Assembly: GCA_022836915.1 (NCBI GenBank)
Contig: CP094668.1
Span: 1,984,001 to 2,048,000 of the forward strand
Direction of reading: 5' to 3'
DNA length: 64,000 bases
From: Paenibacillus sp. OVF10
GTDB lineage: Bacteria > Bacillota > Bacilli > Paenibacillales > Paenibacillaceae
Numbering within the stretch: the first letter of the stretch is position 1; each line of letters begins with the position of its first letter. This document shows, piece after piece, positions 1-8,646 of this stretch. Position numbers and translations under genes: made by a program. Below the pieces are notes generated by a model, which worked only from the letters and a program-made list of their open reading frames with translations, was not told the DNA's origin and did no database searches.

Positions 1-1271
1 GGATCTCGCTATGCATCGTGATGGGTTCCATCGGCACGATGATCATCACGTACTCGCAATTTTTGTATACGTTCTATCAGGTATATGGTGACCTGTATTC
101 CGTAGTCTTTGATCTGGCGATGCTGCTGGGCATGCCAGCGTTATGTTATTTTTTTGAACAGATTATCGGGCCAGGACTGCATGGAATCTTCACCAAACTG
201 CGAAAAATACTATTCATATATTCAGTTATCGCTGTGTTCTCTCTATGTATCTATGTTACTTCAGGTGGGCAATGGGAGATCCTCTACAATCTGCTCGTAC
301 AGCGTGTGGTTGGTATTGTGTTGGTCATTCTGCTGACAATCCTGTTGGTTGGTACCATCGCCAAAGCGCTGCAACGAAATCGGGAAGCTATGCTGCTTGC
401 AACGGGATTTGGTACATTTGCCTTGATCAGTGTGGCTGAACTGTTGTGGTATTATCAGCGGAGTGGGACGTATCATCTGTTATGGTGGAAATGGTCCATG
501 GTTGCATTTGTGATCTCGTTGATTGCCATTCTCGGAAGTCGTTTTGCCGAAAAACATACTAAAGTTCTAGAGTATTCCAAGGAACTGGAGCTGTTCAACA
601 ATGAGTTGCAGCGATCCGAAAAGATGGAGATTATTAGCGAACTGGCTGCTTCCGTTGCCCATGAAGTACGTAACCCACTTCAGGTGACAAGAGGGTTCCT
701 GCAACTTATGACGGAACAGGAAGACAACAAAAATAAGGGGTATGTGCGAATTGCACTGGAAGAACTTGATCGGGCTTCGGGCATCATAACGGATTTTCTT
801 ACCTTTGCCAAACCTGAGTTTGACCATATTATCTCGCTCAATATCTCGGATGAATTCAATCATATTGAAGGCATTCTTGTACCGATGGCTAATCTGGAAG
901 GTGGTAAAATCACTACCGACATTCCGCCAGATCTATATATTCGAGGCAATTCCTCGAAGTTTAAGCAGGCTTTTATCAATATTATCAAGAACAGTATTGA
1001 AGCTCTGCAGGGACAAGGCCAGATTGATATCTGGGCGTACAAGCAGGATGGAATGATTAAGGTACATGTCAGGGATAACGGAGAAGGAATGGACGAGGAA
1101 GCACTCTCCCGGTTGGGCGAGCCTTATTTCTCCAATAAAATCAAAGGCACAGGCCTGGGCATGATGGTGACATTCCGAATTGTTGAAGCGATGCAAGGAC
1201 AGATCAGCTTTACAAGCACCAAAGGGGTAGGAACAGAAGCGGTTGTATCTTTTGCCGAGTTCGTCGATTGA
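1..1271 (+). CDS. Membrane sensor histidine kinase, 5' end outside window
   Basis: The reading frame is open to the left edge, so the N-terminus is missing; the first in-window starts (GTG 18, ATG 21) lie inside a hydrophobic stretch. The visible part has about five or six membrane segments in residues 1-175, a short coiled linker, a HisKA domain with the phospho-acceptor in SVAHEVRNP near visible residue 214, and an HATPase_c domain with N-box NIIKNSIEAL, G1 box DNGEGM and G2 box GTGLGMM. The membrane part resembles 7TMR-DISM-type kinases; the catalytic part resembles Bacillus sporulation-type kinases. No response regulator is adjacent in the window. It converges tail to tail on the NHLP peptide gene with 74 bp between stops. 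Signal and partner are unknown; a receptor role for the neighbouring peptide is only a positional guess. Confidence 0.85.
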   Translation, partial: ISLCIVMGSIGTMIITYSQFLYTFYQVYGDLYSVVFDLAMLLGMPALCYFFEQIIGPGLHGIFTKLRKILFIYSVIAVFSLCIYVTSGGQWEILYNLLVQRVVGIVLVILLTILLVGTIAKALQRNREAMLLATGFGTFALISVAELLWYYQRSGTYHLLWWKWSMVAFVISLIAILGSRFAEKHTKVLEYSKELELFNNELQRSEKMEIISELAASVAHEVRNPLQVTRGFLQLMTEQEDNKNKGYVRIALEELDRASGIITDFLTFAKPEFDHIISLNISDEFNHIEGILVPMANLEGGKITTDIPPDLYIRGNSSKFKQAFINIIKNSIEALQGQGQIDIWAYKQDGMIKVHVRDNGEGMDEEALSRLGEPYFSNKIKGTGLGMMVTFRIVEAMQGQISFTSTKGVGTEAVVSFAEFVD

Positions 1272-1345: not shown

Positions 1346-1588
1346 TTAACTTCTCCAAGGTCCGCAATTCACATCATAATTTACTTTGGAAGGATTGGGA
1401 GGTATGACAAGCACATAGTCATTCTGCTGCTCCTCAACGGTACGCACCTGAATGTGCTCCGGGATTACGATACCGAAAGCTTCACGAAGCGCCTGCTTCG
1501 GATTGGAGTGCAATTGTTGTCTGAAGTGCTCGTCAGTCCAAGCCTTTTCAATAATATCCTCATGCAACGTTTTCTCTGATACCATCAT
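1346..1588 (-). CDS. NHLP-leader peptide precursor with Trp-containing tail (ComX-like candidate)
   Basis: This 80-residue peptide fits the NHLP (nitrile-hydratase-like) leader family of RiPP precursors. The visible pattern is an acidic helix EDIIEKAWTDEHFRQQL, the SNPKQALREAFGI block, IPEHIQVRTVEE, and the hydrophobic YVLVIPPNP that normally ends the leader. The remaining tail, SKVNYDVNCGPWRS, would be the core and has one Cys and one Trp third from the C-terminus. An in-frame ATG at 1606 lies inside the AAGGGA ribosome binding site, so the start at 1588, 9 nt after it, is preferred. It follows the isoprenoid-synthase gene by about 54 bp on the same strand, like comX after comQ. No C39 peptidase exporter or cyclodehydratase is nearby. 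Leader family is fairly sure; the prenylated-pheromone role is inference. Confidence 0.75.
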   Translation of the reverse strand: MMVSEKTLHEDIIEKAWTDEHFRQQLHSNPKQALREAFGIVIPEHIQVRTVEEQQNDYVLVIPPNPSKVNYDVNCGPWRS

Positions 1589-1642
1589 CGTCAACATTCC
1601 CTTCATATTTAAAATTAAACTGAATCAGCTTAGTCCTTATGC

Positions 1643-2590
1643 TCAGAATCCTAACTGTTGCTCGCTAATCCAGTGATGAAACCCGCCTTGGAGGAGCCGT
1701 TTCTTCCGTTGTGTAATGTCCTGAACAGCTTGTACTAAAGTGCTGCATAAATAAGAATTAAACGCCTCGAGATGCGATATTCCTAAGTTAGACGATGTCA
1801 GTGTACGATTATAGCGATAAGCAATGTCTACGTAAGAGTTCATGAGTTGTGTATTATATACATTGTCATGTATACGTTCGCTTAGAGGATGAACTGGATA
1901 GTTGTGATTCAGTGCTGCGGATATGTGGGAGAGGTAGCTGTTGTAGTTTCCATGCACAGCATCTTGTTGCGTGTCTGTGAAGTCATCGGTCATCTGGAGT
2001 GTCATGAGTGTGATGTTGATGGCAGAACACACCGGGATTATCCGGTCGGACTGATTCAGCAGAAGCAGTGCACCAGTAGCTCCAATGAGGAGAGGGGCAG
2101 CCTTTTGCGCAATCAACAAGGGATTCTGTTGGAAATAATCAATGGAATGCTCACCCGTAACACTCACGGCCCAATCCACTACATATTGTCTGAAATAGAC
2201 CCAGAACGTGGAGGAAGGATTGAATAATACCGAGTAAGATTGAAGAGCATCCATGTAATATAGATTACCCAGGGATAACTTCAATGTGGCATTCTCCGGT
2301 TGTTCATCCATCACGTCGTCCTGATTCAGAAAATATAACATGTGAATGAGACAGGCTGTACTTAATTGGTGTGCTTTCTCTGGGGGTAGTTTATCTGAGT
2401 GTTGCATCCAAAGTGGAATGATGTACCCGATGTAGCTGTGTCCCGAATCTCGTAACAGCGGATTAACCGAACGAATCTGCTCTAATGCATGTCCTGAAAA
2501 GGGTTCGGGATATTCCCGTACGAGTTGTTCCGCTGAAGCAAACACGACCTCCAGATCGGATCTAAACGGATCTAACCAATCTCTCCGCAT
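1643..2590 (-). CDS. Class 1 isoprenoid-synthase-fold protein (ComQ-like candidate)
   Basis: This 315-residue, all-helical-looking protein has two aspartate-rich motifs in the arrangement of trans-isoprenyl diphosphate synthases: DDVMD near residue 93, followed by a helix LKLSLGN..MDALQSYSVLF, and DDFTD near residue 204 followed by GNYNSYL. These would bind Mg-diphosphate. Length and layout match ComQ, the isoprenyl transferase that modifies a Trp near the C-terminus of ComX. It lies immediately upstream of, and probably in one operon with, an NHLP-type peptide that also has a near-terminal Trp. It could instead make a free terpenoid or polyprenyl chain. The start ATG at 2590 has AGGAAGGA 12 nt upstream. 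Confidence 0.7.
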   Translation of the reverse strand: MRRDWLDPFRSDLEVVFASAEQLVREYPEPFSGHALEQIRSVNPLLRDSGHSYIGYIIPLWMQHSDKLPPEKAHQLSTACLIHMLYFLNQDDVMDEQPENATLKLSLGNLYYMDALQSYSVLFNPSSTFWVYFRQYVVDWAVSVTGEHSIDYFQQNPLLIAQKAAPLLIGATGALLLLNQSDRIIPVCSAINITLMTLQMTDDFTDTQQDAVHGNYNSYLSHISAALNHNYPVHPLSERIHDNVYNTQLMNSYVDIAYRYNRTLTSSNLGISHLEAFNSYLCSTLVQAVQDITQRKKRLLQGGFHHWISEQQLGF

Positions 2591-3584: not shown

Positions 3585-4837
3585 TCAAAACGGCTCACTC
3601 GTTCCCGGGCTGCGAGTGTGGCCGGGTGACGGAGTTCGCTCAGGTGTAATTCTTTTGTCCACAGCAGCTGATGAATGGGAGGTTGAACGTGGTTTGCGCA
3701 TTAACCCTACCGTGAAACGTGAGCCAGGAAGCTTGGACAGCGCCCAACTGATTGCAAGAGCCATAACAACCGTTACAAGGAACGATAGCAACGTTACAGG
3801 CAGATGCCATCCACTGAGTTGAAGCGGTCTGGTTACATAAGCGATAGCGTAAATTACCAGTGCATGAACCAGATATCCACCAAATGAATAGCGGCCAATC
3901 CAGGATAACAGGCGCTGAAACCGTGTATCTTTGCCTCGCATCAGTACAAGGAAACCATACATCATAAACATCTGAGCCATAATGATCAGGAATGTGGTTG
4001 GTTTCAGATAGGTGGAGATATTCAGATTAACAACATCCCCGGACCCACGCAGCACATCGTAACCAAGCCATATATACATCCCTATAAACAGACAGATCGT
4101 CCATGGCAGCACCTTGGTGGTCCAACTCCTCCAGCTATCCACTGACCAGGCACATACGGCACCCAGTAAAAAGTAGAACCAGTACATCACCCATGAATAG
4201 GAGCGATATTGCAGCAACGTTGACCATGGCTCAGACATGGATTCTGTCCAGCTCCCCATATTATAGTAGGACCATTTCATAAGCAGGCCGTAGAATGCAG
4301 CTGCCAAGACAATGAGTGCCACAATGACTTGCATGGGCGTGAAACGTGAGGTGTTCTGGATACGTCTCTGAATGGCTTTCGCTCCCGCCAAAAAAGGGGG
4401 AACAGAATATAGAACTGAAACACCATAATGACAAACCAGAGATGATATCCCGTCTGCGGGACAAACAGTTCACGAATCAGACTGCAAAAATCGGGTATGC
4501 CTGCACGCCAGAACGCGGGGGTGAAAATACGGACTGCGAGCCAATAGATCAGTGTCCATACGACAAACGGCATATAGATATCGCCAAATCGCTTTCGAAT
4601 GAAGCGAGGATATTCCGGTTTGGTGTTACGATGATGGTAAAACAACATTACACCCGATAGAAATACAAACGTTGGCGTACCAAATCGGGTCAGATGATAA
4701 ATCATGGTCAGCATAATGGAATCCGGTTGTTCAATATCAGCGCGATAGATATACTCAGCGATACTATGCTGCATGACGATTGCCAGAAAGGCAATGCCCC
4801 GCAGTTCGGTCCATTCCGCTATTCGCGGTTTTTTCAC
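3585..4837 (-). CDS. Acyltransferase 3 family membrane protein (one frameshift in the read)
   Basis: Two frames together give a 417-residue membrane O-acyltransferase of the acyltransferase_3 family: start MKKPRIAEWTELRGIAFLAI, catalytic-type His in VMQHS near residue 23, and about ten membrane segments ending in a basic Ser/Pro-rich tail. The break is at a run of six A on the plus strand (4390-4395). One extra base joins ILFPLF to LAGAKAIQRR and makes the length divisible by three. The family acetylates or acylates wall polymers, exopolysaccharides or oligosaccharides; the substrate here cannot be told. The neighbouring LCP ligase hints at a cell-envelope role. Confidence 0.8.
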
Positions 4838-6798: not shown

Positions 6799-6910
6799 CG
6801 TTATATTCGAAGTTAAGCGAAATTTATAGAAAATGAATTCTAACATCTACAATTCATGACGATAGGTGACGATATACTATAAATATGTATTATTTTGAGG
6901 AGTGGGACAC

Positions 6911-8646
6911 ATGGAAGACACGCGGGGGAATAAGTTGGGGATATTGAAGTTAACGATTCGAGGCAAGTTACTGACTGGTTTTTTAATTGTCGTGGCTCTG
7001 CTGGTTGTTGTAAGCGTTTATGCGTTAATACAGATCCATAATATGTCAGGTAAAGCCAATGATGTAGATCAGACTTGGATGCCGAGTGTAAGCCTCCTTG
7101 GCTTGATGAATGGCGATGTTTCGGATGTAGAGCGGTTGGCGCTGGCAATTATCGTTGAACAAGACGAAGAAGAAAATGTCAAGGTGAATGAAGCGTTAAA
7201 GTTGCTCCTCACGAAGATTGAGGATGAGCGTAAACAGTTGCTTACATACATTGAGAGCAATGATGAAGCGATGAAGCTCTACAATGATTTCAGTACGAAT
7301 TATGATGCTTATGTGGAGAAAATGCCTGCATTCATAGAATTCGGTATTGCAAATAACTATGAAGAAGCAAGTAGACTGCACACTGAAGCCTATCCAATGT
7401 GGTACACAGCAAACGACTCTATCGCCAAGTTAATCACTTTAGGCAATGAAGGATCGGATGCAGCAACGAATGAGTCTGTTGTGATGGCAGAGAATACATT
7501 TAATGTGATTTTGGCAGTGACGATTTTTGCATTCTTGCTAGCTGTATTTATTGCCTTCTTCATTGCAAGCATCATTTCACGTCCAATCAAAAAAATGAAT
7601 GAAGCGGCCATGGCTATTGCCAATGGTGATCTGACGGGTGAGACGATTGTACTTAAGAACAAAGACGAATTGGGAACGCTCGCGGCTTCCTTCAATACCA
7701 TGAGTGGCAATTTGCGCTCCATGATTGAATCGGTATCGATGACTTCCGAACAGGTAGCCGCTTCATCGGAGGAGCTTCTTGCAAGTGCAGAGCAAAATAC
7801 TCAAGCCTCGGAACAGATCTCCCAAACGGTCGAAGAACTGGCTGTAGGTACGTCTGATCAAGTTGATATTGTGAAGCGTTCTTCACAGGCGATGAATGAG
7901 ATGGCTCTCGGATCAGAGCAGATTGCCGAGCTTGCTCAGAGTGTATCCGTATCTGCTGTAGATGCGGCGAATCAATCTTCCGAAGGAAATATGATTATTC
8001 AGCAAGCGGTTGAACAGATGGGTTCTGTTCGAAATTCCATTGCTTCGCTTACTGAATTGGTTACAGGGCTGGGGAACGTTCAGCAGAGATTGGAACCATT
8101 ACCGAGGTAATCAACAACATTGCCCGGCAGACCAATCTGCTTGCACTGAATGCAGCCATTGAAGCCGCACGAGCAGGAGAGCATGGACGTGGTTTCGCCG
8201 TAGTTGCGGGAGAAGTGCGTAAGTTGGCTGAGGAATCTTCTACTTCTGCGCAAAGAATTACGGATCTCGTTCAATTGATTCAGAAAGATACGGATCATGC
8301 TGTTCAGGCAGTCAAAGTGAACAGCAGTGAGACAGAAGCAGGAATCGAGCTGGTTACTGCGGCAGGACAAGCGTTCGAGCAGATCTCGGATGCGGTCAAC
8401 AAAGTAGCGGGTGAAATCCAGGAAGTATCTGCAGGTTCAGAAGAAATGTCGGCTAGTACAACTGAGGTTGTAGGATATGTAAGTCAAATCTCCAACATTG
8501 CTGGAGAGGCAGCGGGCGGGGTTCATAATGTATCTGCCGCAACTCAGCAGCAGTTGGCTTCGATGGAAGAGATTGCATCATCCGCAGGTTCATTATCCAA
8601 AATGGCCGAAGAACTGCAGGAGCAGATTAACAAGTTCAAAGTGTAA
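6911..8646 (+). CDS. Methyl-accepting chemotaxis protein (one frameshift in the read)
   Basis: A 578-residue chemoreceptor when one G is restored to the GGGG run at 8071-8074 (LVTGLG then [12 protein letters not shown]). Order: cytoplasmic start, membrane helix at about 18-40, extracellular four-helix-bundle sensor, second membrane helix at about 200-222, HAMP domain ([19 protein letters not shown]) and a long MA signalling domain whose tip carries [19 protein letters not shown] and [15 protein letters not shown]. It passes ligand signals to CheA/CheW. ATG 6911 is preferred over GTG 6902 because GAGGAG lies 8 nt upstream. Monocistronic. Ligand unknown. Confidence 0.92.

Follow-up and report, generated by a model that had tools for sequence, protein, structure and literature searches.

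A PalQ/PalX-type locus of Paenibacillus sp. OVF10 with a non-terminal candidate acceptor tryptophan and a convergent histidine kinase

Introduction

PalQ of Paenibacillus alvei prenylates indole C3 of the C-terminal tryptophan of PalX, a precursor peptide with an NHLP-type leader, and uses C5, C10, and C15 donors; the product is a tricyclic pyrroloindole, as seen by nuclear magnetic resonance for the C5-modified octapeptide (PMC10853753). The leader raises PalQ activity on PalX without being essential, and activity is lost when Ala is added behind the Trp; a kinase, PalP, is named in the same study and nothing further is said of it (PMC10853753). According to PMC13290415, an internal Trp with Gly at positions −2 to +2 still supports low but detectable PalQ activity, and PalQ is being developed for peptide lipidation, the stated limit being its need for a terminal Trp. 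Neither a biological role for PalX, nor a link of PalX or PalP to sporulation, nor a report of PalX peptides with a non-C-terminal Trp was found in the open-access literature. Here, a 64,000-nucleotide stretch of Paenibacillus sp. OVF10 (contig CP094668.1, positions 1,984,001 to 2,048,000; referred to as the window) is described with respect to one locus near its start, in which the genes for an isoprenoid-synthase-like enzyme and an NHLP-leader peptide lie next to a convergent histidine kinase gene. It is a PalQ/PalX-type system, a kind already published from P. alvei in 2023.

The ComQXPA system of Bacillus subtilis is the other described relative; it likewise joins an enzyme of the isoprenoid synthase superfamily to an adjoining peptide with an internal Trp and an adjoining membrane kinase. 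It consists of four same-strand genes ending in comA, whereas the locus in the window has an NHLP leader on its peptide and a convergent, HisKA-type kinase with no regulator seen beside it. Furthermore, ComQ has no second Asp-rich motif (PMC10853753), unlike the enzyme of the window.

Results

Identity of the enzyme and its peptide

The enzyme of 315 residues is followed on the same strand, 54 nt downstream, by the peptide of 80 residues, just as the initial annotation had described, and 74 nt separate the end of the peptide gene from that of the convergent kinase gene, the start of which lies beyond the window (Table 1). The same three genes (enzyme, NHLP peptide, convergent kinase) are found in the record of P. 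alvei DSM 29 (L120). The enzyme is 36% identical to PalQ of P. alvei over 306 residues. D89 and D93 of the first Asp-rich motif (FARM) of PalQ correspond to D91 and D95, D200 and D204 of the second (SARM) to D202 and D206, and the indole-binding Q197 to Q199; both motifs and the Gln before the SARM are invariant in all of the 106 representative enzymes. Structure prediction, one of the checks that had been suggested, returned an all-alpha trans-isoprenyl diphosphate synthase fold with two Asp-rich motifs. When the model was searched with Foldseek, polyprenyl and geranylgeranyl synthases took the top ranks; no ComQ or Ord1 structure was among the matches listed, which is uninformative. In profile searches against Pfam and NCBIfam the enzyme exceeded no family cut-off, and no match to ComQ was obtained, whether either library contains a ComQ model not being established. 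The leader of the adjoining peptide scored above the curated cut-off of the NHLP model (Table 1), and the conserved Trp of PalX has its counterpart in this peptide.

The closest characterized relative of the enzyme is a peptide Trp prenyltransferase, in line with the initial annotation, against which clustering with terpene or carotenoid synthases would have spoken. The designation as a ComQ-type enzyme holds for the predicted kind of activity, that is, a related kind of peptide Trp prenyltransferase, but not for the group, which is that of PalQ, at most 25% identical to ComQ and set in a separate cluster (PMC10853753). The further claim of a new and unusual ComQ/ComX-like hybrid with an NHLP leader is ruled out by the published PalQ/PalX system (PMC10853753). 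As regards the kind of reaction, the enzyme very probably transfers an isoprenoid to Trp78 of the peptide.

Distribution and gene order

The enzyme was found in 63 of 75 genomes of the genus and the peptide in the same 63, adjacent to it in each, so that the pair is conserved together, as the initial annotation requires. Beyond the genus, the enzyme was present in at least 326 of 394 genomes of the family, at least 272 of 392 drawn from the order, and at least 6 of 398 drawn from the phylum, all six of which belong to the family of the window (lower bounds, with five or fewer first-look candidates scored per genome). Except for ∼10 of the 326 family genomes, there was one enzyme match per genome. 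The kinase gene is convergent and no more than 1 kb from the last peptide gene in 144 of the 146 unique loci whose flank is long enough; L189, with too short a flank, is not among them. The exceptions are L177, with the peptide on the opposite strand, and L183, with the kinase ∼14 kb or more away. No relatives were found on viral contigs.

A PalQ-type gene without a peptide, away from the kinase and near regulator-like frames, was seen in L108 and L209, which apparently stem from the same genome. A PalQ fragment filed under Salmonella enterica (P0023, on a contig of 838 bases) is most likely due to contamination with Paenibacillus.

Position of the tryptophan in the precursor peptides

The tails of the precursor peptides were compared for 152 unique pairs of enzyme and peptide, which yielded 107 unique tails. 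Outside this survey are 12 loci lacking the enzyme, four with an enzyme and no peptide match (L108, L200, L202, and L209), two peptide frames cut by the end of the locus, and L297 to L302, which also stand outside the core-cluster, intergenic, and representative-enzyme and -kinase counts. In 106 of the 107 unique cores a Trp is among the final five residues; the exception is the P. alvei record L120, whose final part has slipped out of frame relative to the published peptide and which was excluded from the tree and the core clusters. Across these 106 distinct tails, Trp is the sole universal residue. When similar tails were merged into 74 clusters, Trp was present in all of them, and the next most common combination of position and residue in 23. 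Free variation of this Trp, which would have counted against the initial annotation, was not observed.

What does vary is the distance of the Trp from the C-terminus. No residue follows it in 60 of the 106 tails, one in 29, two in 12, three in 2, and four in 3 (at the level of core clusters, none in 45 of 74 and one in 25). On a quick enzyme tree of 106 rows, in which many forks are open, the presence or absence of such a tail switched at least seven times. The peptide of the window ends in Trp-Arg-Ser; a Trp at the exact C-terminus, as in PalX, is absent here and is no trait of the family as a whole. Since PalQ loses activity with Ala behind the Trp and has only low activity on an internal Trp flanked by Gly, either the rule is looser in the family at large, or the tails are trimmed first. 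A Trp with zero to four residues behind it, read from the peptide genes, is an addition to the published picture of PalQ and PalX. It also makes the relatives of PalQ candidates for enzymes that accept an internal Trp, given that natural Trp residues lie up to four positions inward and that tails were gained or lost at least seven times.

Three loci depart from the usual arrangement. In L297 (2796–4281), one enzyme is followed by five tandem PalX-type precursors (ending in YTWV, FVWI, YNWL, YVWF, and FIWT) and a single convergent kinase; in L128 (5983–10777), one PalQ gene is followed by two consecutive cassettes of peptide and kinase. In L019 (1501–2742; genome G005), a frame shift near the end of the enzyme joins the reading frames of enzyme and peptide into one, which is either an assembly error or a real fusion.

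A Cys-bearing core and altered enzymes in the clade of the window

PalX ends in the Trp preferred by PalQ (DNVRRFFW), whereas the peptide of the window ends in GPWRS and bears an invariant Cys. The sequence YDVNCGPWR is identical in all 44 unique pairs of the clade to which the window belongs, with S, D, T, N, or SF behind it, and it stays invariant while the enzymes of the clade diverge to ∼60% identity. A Cys in the core region occurs in 11 of the 106 unique cores, all of them from this clade. The enzymes of the clade share a long stem (1.18, support 100), which meets another long branch in the tree, so that its placement is unsure.

Comparing 17 representative enzymes of the clade with 89 others revealed differences at otherwise conserved positions, 38, 58, and 207 among them. 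At position 207, all 89 others have W or Y, whereas the clade enzymes have T, M, or F, with T or M accounting for 16 of 17; L58 is present in all 89 others and altered in 16 of the 17. Q38 is found in 17 of 17 clade enzymes and in none of the others, 69 of which have Y38. G55 and F204, each present in 17 of 17, are rare or absent elsewhere, where C55 (72 of 89) and W204 (69 of 89) prevail; F42 is present in 70 of the 89. An impression from 34 enzymes that Y38, F42, and C55 are fixed outside the clade did not hold, given their counts of 69, 70, and 72 in 89. Position 38 is near position 41, the equivalent of K39 of PalQ, a residue that is not highly conserved and occasionally contacted the peptide C-terminus in simulations (PMC10853753).

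The convergent kinase and a possible link to sporulation

The kinase (632 residues, with HisKA and HATPase domains) has a long N-terminal sensor and a hydrophobic part. From its H-box, ASVAHEVRNPLQVTRGFLQL, the specificity residues QVGFQL were read, using offsets derived from Table 1 of PMC6136694. They occur in 107 of 115 unique full-length kinases (191 of 208 when truncated copies count as distinct, 4 having no box). According to PMC6136694, the corresponding residues of B. subtilis are TAGFQL in KinA, TVGFQL in KinB, and TGGFQL in KinD; KinA to KinE share with the kinase of the window the xxGFQL pattern and the HE[IV]RNP box. It differs from them in having Gln for Thr at position +7, and in its long N-terminal sensor and membrane part and its genetic tie to a peptide gene. 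Against the NCBIfam model for KinD it scored 137 bits, below the cut-off of 775. In the genome of the window (G000), xxGFQL together with HE[IV]RNP was present in 5 of the 49 H-boxes read, namely, those of the kinase itself, L260, L262, L266, and L274. The 49 boxes are that of the kinase and those from 48 of 50 further loci (none was found in L245 and L270); the genome has 60 HisKA matches in all, 9 of them outside these loci. No response regulator was seen by eye beside the kinase among the frames of L144, the locus that holds the whole gene, and the two neighbors scanned against Pfam were not regulators.

We infer that Spo0F would be the target of the kinase; an output to sporulation is put forward tentatively, somewhat below even chances, on account of the specificity residues. 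Control of palQ by Spo0A was considered as well, since 41 of 214 loci have an exact 0A box upstream, an apparent enrichment. It was not upheld on representatives: outside the clade, 6 of 89 had a box, at scattered positions, a count equaled by 26 of 630 permuted 7-mers, and inside the clade, 6 of 17 had one, equaled by 11 of 630.

Genomes without the peptide

The 12 genomes of the genus without the pair have retained the kinase and the flanking genes in the same order. On the kinase tree, presence and absence of the pair need two changes; we read these as losses because of the wide spread of the pair, as the number of changes alone cannot show direction. At equal kinase-domain identity, the membrane and sensor parts of the kinases diverged more among peptide-less than among peptide-bearing genomes. 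At a kinase-domain identity of 0.80–0.85, membrane-part identity was 0.36 (12 comparisons) versus 0.59 (68), and at 0.70–0.75, 0.29 (24) versus 0.41 (736), the peptide-less comparisons being few, non-independent, and mostly from one clade of eight. At 0.95 and above there was no excess divergence (0.92 in 12 comparisons versus 0.87 in 368). We read this pattern as that of a receptor whose ligand-binding part would be held in place by the peptide.

Outside the genus, 18 of the 56 enzyme-less genomes of the family, those among the genomes listed, were examined: 15 were without the kinase (11 had kinase-domain matches only and 4 none) and 3 keep it, compared with 5 of 5 enzyme-bearing controls. 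In one of the three, the PalP-type kinase lacks the first ∼150 residues (L300, 3858–5345).

Discussion

Considered as a whole, a model in which Trp78 is prenylated by the PalQ-type enzyme and the processed end of the peptide likely serves as a secreted signal for the convergent kinase appears probable; for the narrower claim that the peptide is the signal of this kinase, the balance tips slightly in favor. What the genomes show directly is which genes make up the locus, in what order and how conserved they are, that the Trp is universal while its distance from the C-terminus varies, and which specificity residues the kinase carries; from these and the characterized homologs we infer all chemical and physiological parts. 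The leader would likely assist docking of the peptide to the enzyme, judging from the effect of the NHLP leader on PalX. By homology with PalQ, binding of the prenyl diphosphate would fall to D91 and D95 together with Mg2+ and that of the indole NH to Q199, and prenylation of indole C3 would give a tricyclic pyrroloindole, as for PalQ and ComQ. Because the Trp is not C-terminal in this clade, the clade's enzyme would need to work on a Trp that has Arg and one or two further residues behind it. Cleavage behind the leader by some protease would follow, as seen for PalX in P. alvei lysate, and the lipophilic peptide would exit the cell and have the membrane part of the kinase as its site of action. 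From this kinase, which carries QVGFQL and next to which no partner regulator was seen, phosphate would go on to Spo0F in the sporulation phosphorelay.

Several observations weigh against this model. In L301 and L302, the enzyme abuts the kinase and no NHLP peptide lies in between. Conservation of the SARM is little proof of function, since the D200A/D204A double mutant of PalQ was still active. Given the results with Ala and Gly, the Pro-Trp-Arg-Ser end of the window peptide is expected to be a poor substrate for PalQ of P. alvei. A model of the fused L019 frame did not show the Trp tail docked in the active site; in it, the leader folded and the tail had a predicted local distance difference test score (pLDDT) below 30; that model was built on an alignment (A3) in which 30 of 34 peptide rows were misplaced into enzyme columns, an alternative (A2) having the peptide ends better placed. 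The idea that a remodeled pocket accounts for an internal Trp finds no support outside the clade: among the 31 non-clade enzymes whose peptides carry a tail, Y38 is retained in 22, F42 in 21, C55 in 24, L58 in 31, and W207 in 28, so that the changes of the clade go with its own core rather than with tails in general. Finally, the excess divergence of the membrane part, besides stemming mostly from one clade, was not seen among the four other peptide-less genomes, and the 12 genomes with the kinase and no pair show that the kinase can be useful without a peptide of its own.

The main alternative for the chemistry is that the tail behind the Trp is first trimmed by a carboxypeptidase, the enzyme then acting on a C-terminal Trp. 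The inactivity of PalQ in vitro with Ala behind the Trp (PMC10853753; PMC13290415) and the shortness of most tails would fit this course of events; the constraint on the tail in the clade of the window (Arg in 44 of 44), the detectable activity of PalQ on a Gly-flanked internal Trp (PMC13290415), and the fact that no peptidase was seen by eye beside the genes in L144 do not, and we regard it as unlikely. The core-region Cys, confined to this clade and accompanied by an enzyme altered at otherwise conserved positions, raises the idea that Cys75 has become the acceptor (S-prenylation) or bears a second modification, Trp78 serving for recognition. The invariance of the Trp in the clade, the unchanged Q199 and Asp motifs, and the fact that every characterized enzyme of this type targets Trp (PMC13290415) make this very improbable. 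An ordinary small-molecule terpene or polyprenyl diphosphate synthase next to an unrelated peptide gene would have the same fold, and PalQ itself was formerly annotated as a terpene synthase (PMC10853753); such a reading is hardly credible in view of the strict co-occurrence and adjacency in the genus, the universal Trp, the invariant indole-binding Gln, and the characterized homolog.

As to function, the prenylated peptide could be an antimicrobial or otherwise membrane-active agent, with the kinase regulating its production or immunity rather than acting as a pheromone receptor. NHLP leaders are usual in antibiotics of the ribosomally synthesized and post-translationally modified peptide class. 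Moreover, antimicrobial peptides are reported to gain activity when PalQ prenylates their Trp (PMC13290415). Still, neither an exporter nor an immunity gene was seen by eye in L144, the core is invariant across the 44 pairs of the clade, nearly all family genomes have a single enzyme match, and the kinase is almost always convergent with the peptide gene, all of which renders an antimicrobial role rather improbable. The presence of the enzyme in at least 326 of 394 family genomes, a conserved convergent kinase with the residues of sporulation kinases, the duplication of the cassette of peptide and kinase, and the divergence of the membrane part in a peptide-less clade make a possible role of PalX, that of a pheromone of the sporulation phosphorelay, directly testable. 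In its most extended form, which taken jointly is possible but doubtful, PalX would be a pheromone of Paenibacillales in most of the family and control entry into sporulation via a dedicated kinase and Spo0F; the acceptor site of the clade would have been rebuilt around an internal Cys-Gly-Pro-Trp-Arg, and the lineages that lost the peptide would be mere receivers with a drifting receptor.

Annotated features and further observations in the window

The coordinates of the features discussed are collected in Table 1.

Table 1. Features of the PalQ/PalX-type locus (window coordinates).
Feature	Position	Strand	Remark
palQ-type gene; protein of 315 aa, predicted to prenylate peptide Trp and to adopt a trans-isoprenyl-diphosphate-synthase fold	1643..2590	−	PalQ homolog (PMC10853753)
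First Asp-rich motif DDVMD, residues 91–95	2306..2320	−	D91, D95 invariant in 106/106 representative enzymes
Gln and second Asp-rich motif QMTDDFTD, residues 199–206	1973..1996	−	Q199, D202, D203, D206 invariant in 106/106
palX-type precursor peptide, 80 aa	1346..1588	−	
NHLP leader, residues 6–67	1388..1573	−	TIGR03793, 64.8 bits versus cut-off 50.9
Predicted core YDVNCGPWRS, residues 71–80 (cleavage site putative)	1349..1378	−	YDVNCGPWR same in 44/44 pairs of the window's clade
Trp78 codon, predicted prenyl acceptor, two residues from C-terminus	1355..1357	−	W in 74/74 core clusters
Cys75 codon	1364..1366	−	Core-region Cys in the window's clade only (11/106 unique cores)
palP-type histidine kinase, 3′ part	1..1271	+	Whole gene is L144:6374–8272, 632 aa

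The protein nearest to that of the window is 97% identical and comes from Paenibacillus sp. VT-400. Upstream of palQ, on the minus strand at 2659–2710, lies a block conserved in most of 13 aligned sequences of the clade, TCACAATTGATCACAAAAAATCCTATTTTTTTCA...TATACT, which is promoter-like and in which TCACAA is repeated. At 3585–4837, two overlapping frames correspond to one frame of ∼420 residues in L145 and L146 (acyltransferase-like by eye); given a genome completeness of 89% as well, this split points to possible indel errors in the assembly. Another gene, at 6902–8646 and resembling a chemotaxis receptor by eye, also appears to be split into two frames.
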